Origin: a virus
Reading direction: 5' to 3' (one strand)
DNA: 21,765 nucleotides
IMG/VR virus record: IMGVR_UViG_3300011258_000814
Coordinates: 1 to 21,765 of that record
Position numbers and translations under genes: made by a program. Positions 4,197 through 11,139 of this stretch are shown here, in pieces. Below the pieces are notes generated by a model. The model ran no database searches, was not told where the DNA came from, and saw only the letters and a program-made list of their open reading frames with translations. Every line of letters begins with the position of its first letter. Within the stretch, counting starts at the first letter, position 1.

Positions 4197-4964
4197 ATGT
4201 CAAAGCTAGTTAAGTTGAACGATACAGGTTTTAACAATATGATCGGTCACTTGCGCAGAGGAACTGGTGCCACATTAAAAGAGGTTACTCGAACTGTAAC
4301 TGGTTCAATACTTCAGAATGCCGCTGTGCATACTGGTAAATCTAGCTATAAAAATATCGTTGCTGATGTGGACAGGTCGCTTTCTAGAATATTTATATCA
4401 AGCACTGGTGTTAAGGTTAGAAAAGGTAAGGATGGTTCACTAGTGGTTAAGAGTCCTGCCGTGACTAACAATAAATGGGTCAAGGTTCGAGATGACTACA
4501 AGGTAAATGCTATCAGTGCCAAAGCTCCTTCAGGTAGAAGTTTCAGTAAGAAACAAACTAGCGCAATCAATAAGGCTCTAGGTGAACTCAGAAAGAAAAG
4601 GACTCAAATGCTTAAGGCTAAAAAGAAAAATATAGCATCGGGTCAGGCTACATTTATTTACATGCTTAGGAAGTTGAGAATAAAGCTAAAGAGCAACAGG
4701 GGACTTGGCGCAGCATTAAAAGTAAAGTTACCTTTGGTTCACACTAGAGCTTTGAGTGCTAGAGAATTTAATGTTGGCAAGGATGAATATATCATCATGC
4801 TTAAAAGTAAATCCATGTCTGCGCTGAACATTCACGCTAAGGGCATGGATGCTTTTAGGAGAGCATTCAATATGCAGGTAAAAGGATTCGAGACTGCGGC
4901 TAAAAAAAACATGAAAGCTTTTACAAAAAAATTCGCTACAAAAAATGGGTTCACTATTAGATAA
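4197..4964 (+). CDS. lysine-rich basic phage protein, function unknown
   Basis: 255 residues from the ATG at 4197. The frame is open upstream to 4077, but that part would overlap the preceding gene and is not needed. The protein is very rich in Lys and Arg (for example 'ELRKKRTQMLKAKKKNIASG' in the middle and 'AAKKNMKAFTKKFATKNGF' at the end). The N-terminal 'DTGFNNMIGHLRRGTGATLKEVTRTVTGSILQNAAVHT' vaguely recalls small tail-completion or head-tail joining proteins, whose genes normally lie after the capsid gene. Here it precedes and overlaps the large terminase by 20 nt. The basic character would also suit a DNA- or RNA-binding virion protein. The function is unassigned. Confidence 0.65.
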   Translation: MSKLVKLNDTGFNNMIGHLRRGTGATLKEVTRTVTGSILQNAAVHTGKSSYKNIVADVDRSLSRIFISSTGVKVRKGKDGSLVVKSPAVTNNKWVKVRDDYKVNAISAKAPSGRSFSKKQTSAINKALGELRKKRTQMLKAKKKNIASGQATFIYMLRKLRIKLKSNRGLGAALKVKLPLVHTRALSAREFNVGKDEYIIMLKSKSMSALNIHAKGMDAFRRAFNMQVKGFETAAKKNMKAFTKKFATKNGFTIR

Positions 4965-6747
4965 CAAAATAAACAATTTATTCTCACCTAGAGAATTAAA
5001 ATCTCCAGTAGATTGGGCATTTGAGAACTGCACCCTTCGTGATAATATATCGGAACTGCCTGGATCTTTGCGCATATTCCCATACGCTAAGCAGCCTCTT
5101 GAGGATCTAATTGACCCTTACGTAAACAAGGTCACACTATGTTGGGGTTCGCAGTCTAGTAAGACTACCACCATGTATACAGGTCTCGCTTACTTATTAA
5201 GTGAGTTTCCGAAAGATACTATATGGATTATGCCATCGGCTGAGAATGCTAGGCAATTTTCAAAAGGCAGATGGTTGCCATTCATCGATGACTGCAAACC
5301 TCTAAAGGCTCAATGCCCTTTAAGTCCTGCAACTGGTAAAGTAGATTCAGACAAAATCACAAATATGCGTCAGGAGTTTCTCTCATGCACATTAACCTTC
5401 GCAGGTGCAGGATCTGAGAATAATGTTAAGTCTGCCCCTGTCGCTTACCTAGTCTTAGATGAAATTGATGAAATTGATCCTGATATTAGACTCGCTGCGC
5501 ATGAACGTATTAAGGGTCGCAGGCAGTATAAGATAATTCAGACTTCCACTCCAAAGGATGAGGAGGGTGGAATCTGGGAGGAATACCTATACGGCGATCA
5601 ACGCAAATACGAAATGCCTTGCCCACATTGCAATGAAGATATCCAGTTTACTTGGAGGCAAACTGATAAGGGTGGTAATCTTAGATACTCAATAGCTTTT
5701 GATGAGGATGCAAAGCTAGAGGAGGGATACGACTTTGAACTTGTAGCTTCAACTGCGCATTACAGATGCGAAAAGTGTGACGGCAAAATATTAGATGCAC
5801 ATAAGCATGACATGATAAAAAATGGCAAATGGGTTTCTGAGAATCCCAATGCACCTAAAGGGCATCACAGCTACCACCTCAATTCCATGTATGCACCTGT
5901 TATGACATTCGCATCATTGATGGTTTCTTGGCTTCAAGTTTGCCATTCAACCCATGGACTAAAGAAGTTTGTTCAGGGTAACTTAGCTGAACCTTGGCGT
6001 GAAGATTGGGCTAATCAGGATCAGGCTGACGCTCACCAGTTGGAGCTAGATTATCAACAGGGTGACATGAAGGGTGAAGTTAGGATACTTGCTGCGGATA
6101 CTCAAACTGATTCGTTCTGGTTTGTCGTTCGCGGCTTCAACAGGGATGGCGATAGCTACTTAATTGATTGCGGTCAGGTGGCTACATTTGCTGAGCTTGA
6201 TGGAAAGTATGATCAGCACACATGCCAATCCGCTATAGTCGACTGCGCAGGCGATAGAACTGCTGAGATTTACGAGGAAGTCCACAAGCGCAGATCTAAG
6301 TGGTTCGGCTCAAGAGGTTGGAAAAATCTGCAAGGGGATCAGCCTTATAGAATGCAAATGAAAGATCCGTTCACTGGAGACAATAAGGGGCGAGCAGGTA
6401 AATCGAAAATACGATACCTCCATGTCAATAAAACTTTGTACGAGGATGAACTCGCCCGCTTGCGTTCTGCTCAGATCACAGGCTTCTATACATTTGCCGA
6501 TACACCTAAGGTTTATTACGATCAATTGTTTTCAACTTACTGGACTAAGGAGACTAACAAGTCTGGTCACATCAAAGTTGTTAAAAAAGTAAAACGCGGT
6601 AAAGGTGATCACATGTGGGACTGCGAAATACTTGCTAGAGCTTTATCTAAGTTCATCGGCATAGCTCGAATAGATGTTAATCAAGATCCTGTTCCCAAGC
6701 GTAAGAAGGTAAGAGGAGGTCAGACTTCAACAGGGTTCTGGAGCTAA
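4945..6747 (+). CDS. terL: terminase large subunit (GpA family)
   Basis: 600 residues, normal for the lambda GpA family. The ATPase domain has a variant P-loop WGSQSSKTT (about 67-75) and Walker B YLVLDEID (168-175), followed by the coupling segment 'IIQTSTPKDEEGG'. A Cys-rich insertion with CPHC (226-229) and CEKC (275-278) is typical of GpA-type enzymes and probably binds zinc. The nuclease domain starts near 'ILAADTQTDSFWF' (D385), with a further acidic strand 'AIVDCAGDRTAEI' and a late 'GDHMWDCE'. It would drive DNA into the procapsid and cut it with the Nu1-like partner. The start at 4945 overlaps the upstream gene by 20 nt and has an A-rich leader. The stop codon lies inside the first promoter repeat. 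Confidence 0.95.
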   Translation: MGSLLDNKINNLFSPRELKSPVDWAFENCTLRDNISELPGSLRIFPYAKQPLEDLIDPYVNKVTLCWGSQSSKTTTMYTGLAYLLSEFPKDTIWIMPSAENARQFSKGRWLPFIDDCKPLKAQCPLSPATGKVDSDKITNMRQEFLSCTLTFAGAGSENNVKSAPVAYLVLDEIDEIDPDIRLAAHERIKGRRQYKIIQTSTPKDEEGGIWEEYLYGDQRKYEMPCPHCNEDIQFTWRQTDKGGNLRYSIAFDEDAKLEEGYDFELVASTAHYRCEKCDGKILDAHKHDMIKNGKWVSENPNAPKGHHSYHLNSMYAPVMTFASLMVSWLQVCHSTHGLKKFVQGNLAEPWREDWANQDQADAHQLELDYQQGDMKGEVRILAADTQTDSFWFVVRGFNRDGDSYLIDCGQVATFAELDGKYDQHTCQSAIVDCAGDRTAEIYEEVHKRRSKWFGSRGWKNLQGDQPYRMQMKDPFTGDNKGRAGKSKIRYLHVNKTLYEDELARLRSAQITGFYTFADTPKVYYDQLFSTYWTKETNKSGHIKVVKKVKRGKGDHMWDCEILARALSKFIGIARIDVNQDPVPKRKKVRGGQTSTGFWS

Positions 6748-6810
6748 TTAAAAAAAAGTTTAAAAAAAGTTAAAAAAAGGCTTGCAATTACTTTGTAGTC
6801 AGCCATAGTA
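6744..6810 (+). promoter_or_regulatory. promoter module, copy 1, with phased A-tracts
   Basis: Three A-runs (6750-6757, 6762-6768, 6772-6778) are spaced about one helical turn and would bend the DNA or act as an UP element. They are followed by TTGCAA (6782-6787) and CATAGT (6804-6809), 16 bp apart, a possible sigma70 pair. The bases most conserved with copy 2 (8838-8903) are in between, TTACTTTGTAGTCAGCC. TTACTTTG (6788-6795) is one base from the Bacteroidota -7 element TAnnTTTG, so that may be the true core, with transcription starting near 6802. It lies at the end of terL and drives the accessory cassette. Confidence 0.65.
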
Positions 6811-6840
6811 GTATTAAGCTCAACGATGAGTGACACTACT

Positions 6841-6864
6841 AAACTACTAAAAAATACTACTATG
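6841..6864 (+). promoter_or_regulatory. repeated translation-start leader, copy 1
   Basis: The form is AAACTACTAA-AAAA-TACTACTAT-G, the last three bases being the start codon. The same 24-nt layout precedes three other genes of this cassette. There is no Shine-Dalgarno. Just upstream, CATAGTAGTATT (6804-6815) is the exact reverse complement of AATACTACTATG (6853-6864), so if it is transcribed it could fold over the start codon. Confidence 0.75.
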
Positions 6865-7239
6865 AAAAACATCACAATCCTCTCTCGCCACAATAACCTC
6901 GAAGATGCAATCGCTGAAGCTGGCGGTCTTAATCGCGGATTCAACCCTGCTGTTTTCGATAAAGAAGTCGAAGATGTTAAAAAACGAGCTGCTGTTCAAG
7001 AGTTCTTAGTTATCGAATACTGCGGTCGTAAAGAAGTCCTTTACACATTTCAATGCGACATCAGACTTCTTAATAAGTTCGAAGCTGGTGGCGGTTGCAT
7101 CAGTAATACAACCCTAATCACTTGGATGATTGATGACGAGCTATGTAATATCCAATCGATTCCTAACAATGATAAAAATCGAAAACTTATTTCTAGTGTT
7201 GGAAATGGCGACAAAAGTTTCTACGTCCTGAACATATAA
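6862..7239 (+). CDS. hypothetical accessory protein 1
   Basis: 125 residues, family not recognised. The start at 6862 is preferred over the in-frame ATG at 6826 because the shared 24-nt leader ends exactly at 6862, as it does at the starts of three neighbours. The N-terminus 'MKNITILSRHNNLEDAIAEAGGLNRGFNPAVFDKE' is helical and charged. The middle 'EFLVIEYCGRKEVLYTFQCDIRLLNKF' is beta-rich. There is no signal peptide or membrane segment. It is the first gene after promoter copy 1 and is followed by a strong terminator, so it can be made as a monocistronic message. It is probably an early or moron-type gene. Confidence 0.65.
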   Translation: MKNITILSRHNNLEDAIAEAGGLNRGFNPAVFDKEVEDVKKRAAVQEFLVIEYCGRKEVLYTFQCDIRLLNKFEAGGGCISNTTLITWMIDDELCNIQSIPNNDKNRKLISSVGNGDKSFYVLNI

Positions 7240-7280: not shown

Positions 7281-7304
7281 AACCTACTAAATACTACTAC
7301 TATG
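7281..7304 (+). promoter_or_regulatory. repeated translation-start leader, copy 2
   Basis: The form is AACCTACTAA-ATAC-TACTACTAT-G, ending in the ATG at 7302. It differs from the other copies only at the third base and in the 4-nt linker. It starts directly at the end of the terminator T-run. Confidence 0.75.
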
Positions 7305-8129
7305 ATCGCTACTCAAAAAATCTCAAAGCATCGCCTCTCTGGAGGCTTCGACCCTAAATCCTACTCATTTGTTGATTGCTTCGACCATCGCATGAATGAG
7401 TCTTATGACCATACCAATGGAACTTACTATGGTGAGGCTAATGACCCTCTCGACTCCTCATACGTTGATGAGCTAGAATCTAATGGCTACAACTGCGACC
7501 AATGCACTCATTGTGGCACTCACCTCAAACATGGATCACTTTACCGCCATACTAGCGGTGAGCTGGTTGTTATTGGTCCTACTTGCGTAGATCGCCTTCA
7601 GTTCGATTCCTGCGATGAAATCCAAGCTCTTCACATTGCAAATCGCTTACGCCTCGCTCGCCTCCGCTCGCTTATGAAGCGCAGCTGGCGTTGGAAAATT
7701 GTTGGTGATTTTCTCATGGAGAATGAGGATAAGAATGCTATCATCGGTGACATGCTCAACAAGCTCAACAAATACTTGAGTATCTCTCGCAAGCAAATCG
7801 CCTTTGCTCGCAAACTGGTTCGCGATGAAGCTGAGCGTGAGTCTCGCAAAGCTGAGCGTGAGGCTAAACTAGTCAACACTCCAGACTGGCAGGATGGTCG
7901 GCTTGAGATTGAAGGTAAGGTGCTATCTTGCAAATGGAAGGATTCTGACTTCGGCGGTGGATATAAGCTACTCATCGAGATTGAGGATGGTCGCAGATGC
8001 TGGGGTTCTGCTCCTCAAAAATACTTCGATGCTGGTGAGCCTAAAACTATCCGCATCAAGGCTGGATTCACACCTTCCCGTGACGATAAAAAGTTTGCCT
8101 TCTACAAGCGTCCCACTTTCATTGCTTAA
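7302..8129 (+). CDS. zinc-binding phage protein with basic coiled region
   Basis: 275 residues. A Cys-rich N-terminal module spans residues 65-95: C65-x2-C68-x2-C71, then H77 and H83, then 'VVIGPTC95VDRL', which reads as a zinc ribbon or treble clef with a CxxCG knuckle. The middle (about 110-190) is a strongly basic helix set ('RLRLARLRSLMKRSWRWK', 'ESRKAEREAKL'). The C-terminal 75 residues ('GRLEIEGKVLSCKWKDSDFGGGYKLLIEIEDG ... KTIRIKAGFTPSRDDKKFAFYKRP') look like a beta-barrel, possibly OB-like. A nucleic-acid-binding role fits, but no named family is claimed. It is second in the accessory cassette and uses the shared leader. Confidence 0.7.
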   Translation: MIATQKISKHRLSGGFDPKSYSFVDCFDHRMNESYDHTNGTYYGEANDPLDSSYVDELESNGYNCDQCTHCGTHLKHGSLYRHTSGELVVIGPTCVDRLQFDSCDEIQALHIANRLRLARLRSLMKRSWRWKIVGDFLMENEDKNAIIGDMLNKLNKYLSISRKQIAFARKLVRDEAERESRKAEREAKLVNTPDWQDGRLEIEGKVLSCKWKDSDFGGGYKLLIEIEDGRRCWGSAPQKYFDAGEPKTIRIKAGFTPSRDDKKFAFYKRPTFIA

Positions 8130-8151
8130 ACTACTAACCAATACTACTATG
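8128..8151 (+). promoter_or_regulatory. repeated translation-start leader, copy 3
   Basis: The form is AAACTACTAA-CCAA-TACTACTAT-G, overlapping the stop codon of the preceding gene (8127-8129) and ending in the ATG at 8149. Both arms are exactly complementary to the element at 8668-8688, downstream of the same gene. Confidence 0.8.
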
Positions 8152-8667
8152 AATATATTCGCTATCGACTCTAACCCATGTCTGGCAGCAAAACATCTTT
8201 GCGATCAACATATTGTTAAGATGATCTTAGAAAGCTCTCAAATCCTAGCCTCCGCTTGCATCCGTCACGGAGTAGAGGAAAGCAGGATGCCACTAACTAA
8301 GAGTGGCACTACTGCAAAGGGTGGTTACCACCATCACCCATCAACTGTTTGGGCAGGCAATAACCGATCCAACTATTATTGGGTAGTAATGCACATGATG
8401 AGACTTTGCACGGAATACACTGAGCGTTTCGACAAGCATCATTTTTGCGAGAGTCAGTGTAAGGTTTACTACAACCTCGCTGAACGCATCCCCGATGGTG
8501 AGCTTGAGCGATTCAGCATTGCCATCAGTAAAGAAGCAAAATGCCGTTCTGCAATAAAAAACTTTGACAAGATGCATCCAGTCTCTCAATATCGTGCATA
8601 TTATAAATACGATAAAACTTTTGGCAGGTGGAAAAAAAATAAGCCTGATTGGCTTACCACCTACTAG
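8149..8667 (+). CDS. conserved phage protein of the MNIF...HIVKMILES type
   Basis: 172 residues from 8149. An upstream in-frame extension to 7894 exists but would lie inside the previous gene, and the shared leader marks 8149. The pattern 'MNIFAIDSNPCLAAKHLCDQHIVKMILESSQILASA ... HHHPSTVWAGNNRSNYYWVVMHMMRLCTEYTERF ... HPVSQYRAYYKYDK..GRWKKNKPDW' is one I recognise from many uncharacterised phage proteins. The conserved N-terminal D and H/K (KHLCDQHIVKM), the His cluster at 'YHHHPSTVWA' and the closing 'YRAYY...K...W' are all present. No biochemical function is known to me. Its stop codon is directly followed by the antisense element and a terminator. Confidence 0.8.
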   Translation: MNIFAIDSNPCLAAKHLCDQHIVKMILESSQILASACIRHGVEESRMPLTKSGTTAKGGYHHHPSTVWAGNNRSNYYWVVMHMMRLCTEYTERFDKHHFCESQCKVYYNLAERIPDGELERFSIAISKEAKCRSAIKNFDKMHPVSQYRAYYKYDKTFGRWKKNKPDWLTTY

Positions 8668-8688
8668 ATAGTAGTAAATTAGTAGTTT
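8668..8688 (+). ncRNA. 3'UTR element antisense to the repeated leaders
   Basis: ATAGTAGTA-AA-TTAGTAGTTT begins one base after the stop codon of the preceding gene. ATAGTAGTA is the reverse complement of TACTACTAT, and TTAGTAGTTT is the reverse complement of AAACTACTAA, the two arms of the 24-nt leader. It could therefore pair with three of the four leaders over 9 + 10 bp and with the fourth with one mismatch, covering the AU of AUG. It runs straight into a terminator hairpin, which is the layout of a 3'UTR-derived small RNA (about 8668-8721). It could instead close a long-range loop with the leader of its own gene. Confidence 0.6.
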
Positions 8689-8721
8689 CCACACCCTTTT
8701 TAGTAGGGGGGTGTGGAATTT
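8687..8721 (+). terminator. intrinsic terminator after the antisense element
   Basis: A 10-bp perfect stem TTCCACACCC (8687-8696)/GGGTGTGGAA (8709-8718) with a 12-nt loop is followed by a short TTT. The U-tract is weak, so part of its role may be to protect a 3' RNA end. Confidence 0.7.
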
Positions 8722-8837: not shown

Positions 8838-8903
8838 CTAATTGAAAAAAAGTTTAAAAAAAGTTAAAAAAAGCTTGCAATTACTTTGTAGTCAGCCACA
8901 ATA
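8838..8903 (+). promoter_or_regulatory. promoter module, copy 2, with phased A-tracts
   Basis: This is nearly identical to 6744-6810: one substitution and one 1-nt deletion up to the end of the AGTCAGCC block. A-runs lie at 8845-8851, 8856-8862 and 8866-8872. TTGCAA is at 8875-8880, TTACTTTG at 8881-8888, and CACAAT at 8897-8902. Beyond 8897 the copies diverge. If the sigma70 reading holds, transcription would begin at about the ATG of the next gene (leaderless); under the Bacteroidota-like reading the leader is about 14 nt. Confidence 0.65.
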
Positions 8904-9091: not shown

Positions 9092-9115
9092 AAACTACTA
9101 AAAAATACTACTATG
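9092..9115 (+). promoter_or_regulatory. repeated translation-start leader, copy 4
   Basis: The form is AAACTACTAA-AAAA-TACTACTAT-G, identical to copy 1 over all 24 nt and ending in the ATG at 9113. There is no Shine-Dalgarno. Confidence 0.75.
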
Positions 9116-9358
9116 AGACTTACCGATAACACGAACAAGGCAACCCGCGCATGGGTCGACGGCATTTTGTGTCAGCTCGATTTAGTGATTTCTGAGGGCT
9201 CTTATCGTGATGTCTTTGAGACATTGAAGGCACATCAAATTGCCAACAGCTCATCCGATGAGGTTACTGAGTCACTTACCATCTACCTATGCATGACTAA
9301 ATTTGAGGCAGACGCCAAGCGCGGATTGTATAAAAAAAAATCACATTTCTTAATTTAG
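9113..9358 (+). CDS. hypothetical accessory protein, last of the cassette
   Basis: 81 residues, mostly helical ('NKATRAWVDGILCQLDLVISEGSYRDVFETLKAHQIANSSSDEVTESLTIYLCMTKFEADAKRG') with a Lys-rich end (YKKKSHFLI). There is no membrane segment and no family I recognise. It uses the shared 24-nt leader, shares a transcript with the 57-residue gene from promoter copy 2, and is followed by the strongest terminator of the window. Confidence 0.6.
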   Translation: MRLTDNTNKATRAWVDGILCQLDLVISEGSYRDVFETLKAHQIANSSSDEVTESLTIYLCMTKFEADAKRGLYKKKSHFLI

Positions 9359-9390
9359 TTATCGAATCCCTCTAAGAGAAAAAAATCAAG

Positions 9391-9413
9391 CCTCCCTTCG
9401 GGGAGGTTTTTTT
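9391..9413 (+). terminator. strong intrinsic terminator closing the accessory cassette
   Basis: CCTCCC (9391-9396), tetraloop TTCG, GGGAGG (9401-9406), then seven T (9407-9413) make a textbook terminator. It separates the accessory cassette from the head genes. Confidence 0.95.
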
Positions 9414-9443
9414 GTGCCTAGATTGACAGATTTACTGTTCTTA

Positions 9444-9686
9444 ATGGCTTCCACTACTACAACTGCTCAATTTGTTATAATCCGTGACAAGTTACTTCTT
9501 GCAATTAACAAACTAGCTGAAGAGGGTGTTACTAGTTATAGTATAGGTGACCAAACATTCTCCCTAGCTGATGTTGGAAACTTAATTGACCAAGTGGAGA
9601 AGCTCGATAAACTTATTGCCCTAAAAGACAGGACGCTTGGTGCGCGTGGTCAAAATCGCATCACAATGAGACATTTTAATGGCTAA
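9444..9686 (+). CDS. gpW-like head-tail adaptor
   Basis: 80 residues from the ATG at 9444. A GTG at 9414 in frame is unlikely because it directly follows the terminator T-run. The position immediately before the portal and the size match lambda gpW. The pattern is also right: an N-terminal helix, then a beta hairpin 'EGVTSYSIGDQTFSLADVGNL', then a helix 'IDQVEKLDKLIALKDRT'. gpW closes the portal after packaging and helps bind the tail-joining protein. The stop overlaps the portal start by 8 nt. Confidence 0.75.
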   Translation: MASTTTTAQFVIIRDKLLLAINKLAEEGVTSYSIGDQTFSLADVGNLIDQVEKLDKLIALKDRTLGARGQNRITMRHFNG

Positions 9687-11139
9687 TAAAAATAAAAAAA
9701 CATCCAAGTTGAGTTTCGCTGCTCGCCAGTTCTGGCATGCACTGCGTGGCTATGACGCTGTGCAAAATACTCGCTATCGTGCGAATCGTGGGAATCAACC
9801 TATCCAGAGTGAAGAGTTGGAGCTTAAGAATTACGATCGAGATCACCTTGTTTCGTCATGTTTAAATTTGCGCAGGAATAACCCGATCGTAGCTTCGCTT
9901 TCAAGATTACGTAAAGCTGACATTGTTGGTCGCGGCATCAACCCTCAACCTTCTACTGGTGATACTGAATTAGACACTAAAATCGAAGAATGTTGGCATG
10001 AATTTTCAAAGTCTCCTGAAATAACTGGAATGATGGACATGCGTGACCTCCAGCAGCAGATGATCGATTCCCTATTGTTTTATGGAGATTGTGGACTAAT
10101 TATTGGAAATCAGGAGGTTCAATTTGTCGACGGCTCACGCATCGCTAACCCATCAGGTTACTCCACGAGTAATGAAACTTCAGAGTATCAGAATGGCGTT
10201 CGAGTAAATGAGCTAGGTCGACCTACTGGTTATGTAGTTGGCAATAGAGTTTCTGGAACTGTAAGAGATCAGAAGATAATTCCTGCTAGAGATTTCATTC
10301 CATTCCTAAAAAGAATCAGACCTGTTCAGTATCGAGGAATACCTGAACTAGCTCCAATTTTAAATACCCTGCAAGACTGCGATGAGTATGATCGGGTAGA
10401 GATGATTTCTGCTAAAGTTTCAGCATCACTATCTGTTGCAGTCAAGCGTGACAACTCTTACGAGTTCGAGCTACAAAATAGACTAAACTCCTCAGAGCAG
10501 GATGATCTTGGCAATTTAGAACAGTTTGAACCTGGTCGTTTCCATTACCTTGAAGCAGGTGAAGACATTAGTGTTATTGGAGGTGGCGGTCGCCCTAATG
10601 TTGATGGCATCCAATGGGTAAGTTATTTACTTAGAAAAGTTGGCAGTGCTGTCGGCATACCTCTTGAGTTCCTAATGATGGAAATCGGAGGTTCTAGTTT
10701 CTCCGCATCACAAGGTGTTGTTCTGCAATACCAGCAAACTGTTGAAAGCTACCAGAGTGACCTAATTAAAGTTATGGATTCACTGTACCGCCGATGGCTT
10801 TCCCAAAAAATAGCAGCAGGGGAAATAGACATTTCTAATACTTCAAGTCCGTTTAAGGTCAGGTGGCAACGTCCAGCTTTCAGATGGATCAACAGGGCTG
10901 CGCAGGTAAAGGCTGACATGGAATATTTCCGAGCAGGTGCAATGTCACTAGATGACATCACAGCTCCATTTGGCTACACGGCTGAAGATGTATTAAGGCG
11001 TAAGGCTCAAAACATTCTGAAGGCTCAATCAATAGCTCAGGAATCAGGTCTAGATTGGAAGGAACTAATTAACCCGTTCCCAACATCATTAAGTGGTAAC
11101 TATTCAGAAGTTGTAGATGGCGATCAAAAATCAATTTGA
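9679..11139 (+). CDS. portal protein (lambda GpB type)
   Basis: 486 residues, typical of the GpB/Phage_portal_2 family. Recognisable segments are the N-terminal 'RYRANRGNQPIQSEELELKNYDRDHLVSSCLNLRRNNPIVASLSRLRKADIVGRGINPQP' (about 32-97), 'RDFIPFLKRIRPVQYRGIPELAPILNTLQDCDEYDRVE' (around 210), and the late 'VGIPLEFLMMEIGGSSFSASQGVVLQYQQTVESYQ' block (around 335). It would form the dodecameric ring through which DNA enters and leaves the capsid. It overlaps gpW by 8 nt and the head protease by 23 nt. Intact. Confidence 0.93.
   Translation: MANKNKKTSKLSFAARQFWHALRGYDAVQNTRYRANRGNQPIQSEELELKNYDRDHLVSSCLNLRRNNPIVASLSRLRKADIVGRGINPQPSTGDTELDTKIEECWHEFSKSPEITGMMDMRDLQQQMIDSLLFYGDCGLIIGNQEVQFVDGSRIANPSGYSTSNETSEYQNGVRVNELGRPTGYVVGNRVSGTVRDQKIIPARDFIPFLKRIRPVQYRGIPELAPILNTLQDCDEYDRVEMISAKVSASLSVAVKRDNSYEFELQNRLNSSEQDDLGNLEQFEPGRFHYLEAGEDISVIGGGGRPNVDGIQWVSYLLRKVGSAVGIPLEFLMMEIGGSSFSASQGVVLQYQQTVESYQSDLIKVMDSLYRRWLSQKIAAGEIDISNTSSPFKVRWQRPAFRWINRAAQVKADMEYFRAGAMSLDDITAPFGYTAEDVLRRKAQNILKAQSIAQESGLDWKELINPFPTSLSGNYSEVVDGDQKSI

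Follow-up and report, generated by a model that had tools for sequence, protein, structure and literature searches.

A putative antisense element in a phage 3' untranslated region that matches a leader repeated at translation starts

A phage antisense RNA is usually described with a single target mRNA, or with a few. A repeated sequence at many gene starts is known from cluster K mycobacteriophages, where 13-bp, asymmetric start-associated sequences (SAS) occur in 11-19 copies, a few bp from start codons, and where four K1 phages carry one SAS in the opposite orientation, away from any gene start (Pope et al. 2011, PMC3203893). The role of SAS was called unknown in the source papers in 2011 and still in 2024. 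Base-pairing regulators of related kinds include the c4 antisense RNA of phages P1 and P7, whose loops present sequences complementary to a phage mRNA at its ribosome-binding region (PMC12197685), the 3' untranslated region (3'UTR) of icaR in Staphylococcus aureus, which pairs with a translation start region and blocks initiation (PMC3868564), and the LhrC small RNAs (sRNAs) of Listeria, which use a terminator loop. In this study, a 21,765-base virus record from IMG/VR (IMGVR_UViG_3300011258_000814; hereafter "the window") was analysed. It contains a short element, located in the 3'UTR of one gene, that is the reverse complement of a leader found ahead of four genes. A single element appears to target a regulon whose genes share a repeated tag where translation starts. 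We consider it probable, from the sequences compared here, that this phage family encodes a trans-acting antisense RNA regulator that exerts negative feedback on the leader regulon, both in cis and in trans.

A repeated leader and its complement in the window

A leader of the form AAACTACTAA-N4-TACTACTATG precedes the genes at 6862, 7302, 8149 and 9113, as a preliminary description of this DNA had reported, with one mismatch in the second copy; none is expected in shuffled sequence. The leaders, the complementary arm and the adjoining hairpin are as follows.

6841-6864, + strand: leader 1, AAACTACTAA-AAAA-TACTACTATG; exact match; conserved in relatives L012, L102, L103 and L104
7281-7304, + strand: leader 2, AACCTACTAA-ATAC-TACTACTATG; 1 mismatch; conserved in L012 and L101-L104
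8128-8151, + strand: leader 3, AAACTACTAA-CCAA-TACTACTATG; exact match; conserved in L012, L103 and L104; overlaps the stop codon of gene 7302-8129
8668-8688, + strand: antisense arm, ATAGTAGTA-AA-TTAGTAGTTT; complementary in reverse to both arms of the leader; unpaired in the predicted fold
8687-8718, + strand: hairpin, TTCCACACCC-TTTTTAGTAGG-GGGTGTGGAA; -21.1 kcal/mol, z -4.5
9092-9115, + strand: leader 4, AAACTACTAA-AAAA-TACTACTATG; exact match

The preliminary description had also claimed an exact reverse complement of both leader arms in the right order, and this holds at 8668-8688. The order of the arms fits one continuous duplex with the leader, internal loop included. When up to three mismatches are allowed, this is the sole such site in the window, and none is expected by chance. 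With leader 1 or leader 3 as partner, the 21-nt arm has a duplex energy of -18.7 kcal/mol in RNAduplex. The element had been placed one base past the stop of the third leader gene (8149-8667); there is in fact no gap, as the stop codon ends at 8667. The hairpin that follows bears a third TAGTAG (within TTTTTAGTAGG). This copy is the complement of CTACTAAAAA in leaders 1 and 4 and is partly paired in the predicted fold. The leaders themselves are predicted to be unstructured, abut the AUG and lack a Shine-Dalgarno sequence. A further copy of ATAGTAGTA at 6805-6813, near the first promoter-like stretch, was dropped as it is not conserved in L103 and L012.

Matched leaders and loops among relatives

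Relatives were gathered from IMG/VR by terminase and portal searches and form a family with a common layout, with terminases 73-99% identical to that of the window. No resemblance was found between the island DNA around the leaders and cultured phages, and no terminase of a cultured phage exceeded 30% identity among the matches listed. The closest relatives (L012, L139, L103/G002 and L104/G001) keep CTACTA leaders and, immediately ahead of a hairpin, a TAGTAGTA..TAGTAGT element; the stem of this hairpin differs in sequence and retains its pairing.

In the family the leader core is AYACKAC, 0-3 nt from the ATG, and the loop of the terminator that ends one leader operon is the exact complement of the leader, with the consensus GTMGTRT. 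The homologous hairpins of most relatives bear T-runs and so qualify there as intrinsic terminators; the window hairpin matches in position the terminator whose loop bears the antisense sequence in these relatives. The AATACGAC leader (L108-110, L113, L118, L120, L121, L128, L135, L180, L192, L193 and G010) is accompanied by the terminator loop GTCGTAT, the ACACGAC leader (L105-107, L112, L114-117, L123, L124, L127, L137, L167, L168, L172, L176, L188, L189 and L205) by GTCGTGT, and the ACACTAC leader (L136/G011) by GTAGTGT. In the window group, which has the ATACTAC leader, the complement GTAGTA lies in the single-stranded stretch before the hairpin. All four Y/K combinations therefore exist, each with a matching element, and both variable positions have changed on both sides. 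At the same place, leaderless phages (e.g. L133, L134, L194 and L197-L201) have tetraloops or other loops. The preliminary description had named related phages as the place where its proposal might fail; in these phages the leaders and the element co-occur and covary, with all four combinations at the two positions.

Exact matching over 7 nt to the loop of the same contig was observed for 97 of 105 leaders on 34 contigs, these being the contigs with such a terminator loop, and each has exactly one. For each loop, the cognate leader gives the best or joint best pairing energy. An alignment of leader-element duplexes was assembled by hand, with one row per distinct leader-element combination, the window group being represented by its upstream arm. 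In this alignment 93.8% of cells are paired and two pairs are changed on both sides (UA/CG and GC/UA). The covariation score of 0.262, of a kind that kinship among the rows inflates, compares with 0.111 in shuffles (reached in 0 of 500) and at most 0.073 for slid partners; the number of pairs changed on both sides, taken alone, shows no excess over shuffles. The hairpin stem covaries as well, with changes on both sides at 7 of 11 pairs, and the loop core is constant within a type.

A check that made no use of the motif compared 304 terminator-like hairpins from 68 contigs with the start regions of all open reading frames. Hairpins complementary to several start regions were overwhelmingly the island terminators. 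Same-orientation matches were mostly the reverse strand of island-terminator hairpins or single chance matches.

The leader might instead serve only as a translation-initiation enhancer in a host with little Shine-Dalgarno use, the loop being a mimic or decoy for a third partner. The placement of leaders against the AUG and their lack of a Shine-Dalgarno sequence would suit this explanation. However, direct leader-loop complementarity tracks across four types, and the third partner would need to change in step in every host. We regard this explanation as very unlikely.

Several other candidate matches were set aside. TAGGTT, which lies upstream of the terminators and would pair with AACCTA of the leader, was considered as a second antisense arm and dropped as specific evidence because leaderless L099, L133, L134 and L194 also show TAGG there. 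Antisense-pattern matches in L138 and L140-L143, and leader-pattern matches in L005, L007, L008, L010 and L014-L016, look like chance or coding repeats. Possible further partial complements occur, within the corresponding terminator or close to it, in the distant relatives L195/L196 (loop GTATTTT, leader AAAATAC), L204 and L210, whose leaders are of other sequence and too few to judge.

Distant leaders, proposed mechanism and gene context

Of 16 leaders that are on the strand opposite to the loop or over 3 kb distant from it, 14 match the loop. For example, G001 has four island leaders and four more at a distance of about 21-24 kb, and outlying leaders are also present in G006, G003, G010, G011, G009 and G012. 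The preliminary description had proposed control of a whole regulon by base pairing, and both the covariation and the match of far leaders to the element lend support to this proposal. The element could alternatively act only in cis, circularising its own mRNA by 3'UTR-5'UTR pairing and controlling no other operon. It is always found in the 3'UTR of a leader operon, and the icaR 3'UTR is a proven case of this kind (PMC3868564). Yet an element of this kind would leave distant leaders unconstrained, whereas leaders that belong to other transcription units and lie downstream of the terminator, at distances of up to ~17 kb or more, share the type of the loop. We judge an exclusively cis-acting element unlikely; because the distant leaders match the loop, action in trans is favoured.

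On a portal tree the leader types are clustered but do not each form a single clade; when leaderless phages are counted, the tree needs a total of 7 label changes. One contig, L124, has flanks 95-97% identical to L121 and an island 96% identical to that of L116. In comparison with L121, L128 and L116, its leaders and its loop are both of the L116 type. Judged from these identities, this is a recent replacement of the whole accessory island, in which the leaders and the antisense loop were swapped together. Such swapping of islands between phages would also fit a DNA-level explanation, in which the leader serves, as DNA, for protein binding or recombination and the element is a further copy in opposite orientation. 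Any reverse complement is an inverted DNA copy too, and leader 3 and the element flank one window gene as inverted repeats. In L124, however, neither boundary of the exchange (about 3278 and 5320) coincides with a leader; in most relatives the inverted copy lies in the apical loop of an RNA hairpin that covaries, and leaders also occur between genes inside operons, directly against the AUG. Of the explanations considered, a DNA site seems to us the least probable.

Under the antisense RNA proposal, one operon would present the leader complement at its 3' end, in most cases within the terminator, in a loop or single-stranded stretch; the leader itself directly precedes the start codons of between several and eight phage genes across the genome. 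Once transcribed, the 3'UTR or a fragment of it would pair with every leader, across the AUG or beside it, by 7-10 bp in most relatives and 9+10 bp in the window. Pairing would block 30S binding, so that translation of the whole regulon would fall as the operon is expressed. Feedback would be negative, on the operon itself in cis and on distant leader genes in trans. Translational repression is proposed because the leaders are predicted to be unstructured and abut the AUG, and because each loop pairs best, or equally best, with leaders of its own type. We infer from sequence that the element is transcribed, released as a separate RNA and actually paired, and that its effect is repression rather than activation.

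Several observations weigh against the antisense RNA proposal. Eight of the 105 leaders mismatch their own loop, five of them in one homologous gene, and L111 has leader-like sites without an antisense loop. In the window group, the main antisense sequence lies upstream of the hairpin and not in a well-open loop. The preliminary description had called the window hairpin a terminator; the hairpin stands, but no T-run follows it and it is absent from a terminator scan of the window, and in this phage it does not qualify as a canonical terminator. The analysis identified no promoter dedicated to the element, which makes an element within a 3'UTR more likely than an independent sRNA gene. Since the matched set moves as a module, the independent compensatory events are few. 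A host search across genome contigs gave no match.

The leader genes form part of a small-gene island between the terminase large subunit gene (4945-6747, GpA type) and the connector/portal genes (9414-11139). Family searches leave most of them without a known function.

6750-6804, + strand: A/T-rich promoter-like stretch ending TTGCAATTACTTTGTAGTCAGCCA, ahead of gene 6862; seen in the sequence
6862-7239, + strand: leader gene 1; 125 aa, no family match
7302-8129, + strand: leader gene 2; 275 aa, matching PHROGs of unknown function; cysteine-rich centre
8149-8667, + strand: leader gene 3; 172 aa, with a Pyr_excise (pyrimidine dimer DNA glycosylase) domain (PF03013, 1e-9); phrog_624
9113-9358, + strand: leader gene 4; 81 aa, no family match

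A near-identical copy of the 6750-6804 stretch lies at about 8843-8898, ahead of gene 8909. Both stretches, read as promoters, are the probable starts of leader-gene transcripts. In relatives, a promoter and a short 5'UTR hairpin are repeated ahead of several island operons. Rfam covariance models gave no match to the window element at gathering score; the only sub-threshold match is to Phe_leader at 9331-9415 (29.1 bits, gathering 55), at a terminator and probably due to chance. Elsewhere in the window, a Tet_JBP oxygenase gene (1299-2093) adjoins a gene for a TET-associated glycosyltransferase (TAGT; 2090-2908), suggesting DNA base hypermodification.

Comparison with cluster K mycobacteriophages and other systems

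The SAS of cluster K and the leaders of the window family both repeat a short sequence at gene starts, and K1 phages likewise have one reverse copy in a hairpin loop. The reverse-orientation SAS was located in three of the four phages (Adephagia 58682, Anaya 59870 and Angelica 58634), and in each case it forms the loop of a long hairpin close to the genome's right end. This hairpin (L216:28640-28745, equivalent to Adephagia 58639-58744) is also present in L217, L218 and L227-L233, and its region matches 126 phage records. Among ten aligned examples, 4 of 26 predicted pairs have changes on both sides and the loop is nearly constant. Pairing between the K1 loop and SAS is predicted at -18.2 kcal/mol. 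No mention of the hairpin was found in the SAS source papers.

Clear antisense hairpins were found in K1 phages only. The Amginevirus loop is imperfect, and Pixie, Kratio, Unicorn, ZoeJ and Aminay have no clear antisense hairpin on the coding strand. Hairpins with an SAS core in Pixie (L219, 58804-58841) and Aminay (L223, 37138-37170) were not counted as antisense because they carry the SAS sense sequence on the + strand (loops GGATAGG and ATAGGAG). These two hairpins are strong and intergenic, and a leftward transcript would expose the antisense sequence. Ekdilam was rejected as a case of covariation, as its loop departs from the SAS complement and its SAS is unchanged.

The two systems differ in that the phages are unrelated and SAS holds the Shine-Dalgarno sequence AGGAG. 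The window leader and the SAS consensus GGGATAGGAGCCC are different sequences, alike only in architecture. Covariation of leader and loop cannot be tested for SAS because SAS hardly varies. Because the other cluster K genomes examined show no clear antisense hairpin on the coding strand, the parallel is suggestive and not proof of a general rule. We put forward tentatively, with somewhat less than even confidence, that these are two cases of a convergent phage strategy, in which a start-associated tag marks a regulon and a single complement-bearing hairpin shuts it in trans. Such a strategy may have arisen at least twice, once in the uncultured phages with four leader types and once in cluster K, and would there account for SAS. 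This offers a concrete and testable hypothesis for sequences reported in 2011 and without an accepted role in 2024; cluster K mycobacteriophages grow on a standard laboratory host. In the window family, the tags and antitags that match in nature serve, in effect, as compensatory mutants already made.

The preliminary description knew of no described system of this form. Within a literature coverage that is incomplete, we likewise found no paper describing a start tag combined with a single complementary hairpin; the precedents that it left unnamed are SAS, c4 RNA, LhrC and the icaR 3'UTR. Like the proposed regulator, c4 is a phage RNA with loops complementary to a phage ribosome-binding region, but it is described against ant mRNA only, whereas the leader of the window family is repeated before many genes (PMC12197685). 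The LhrC sRNAs resemble the window element in carrying several seed copies; they are bacterial sRNA genes that use a general UCCC motif against G-rich or Shine-Dalgarno sequences, in contrast to a phage-specific leader outside the Shine-Dalgarno sequence and a 3'UTR location. The icaR 3'UTR pairs with a translation start region, as proposed here, but controls its own mRNA and no multi-gene regulon with a shared leader (PMC3868564). Base pairing through terminator loops, 3'UTRs or the loops of phage RNAs is thus already known, and we suggest that the element is best filed under antisense and sRNA control.
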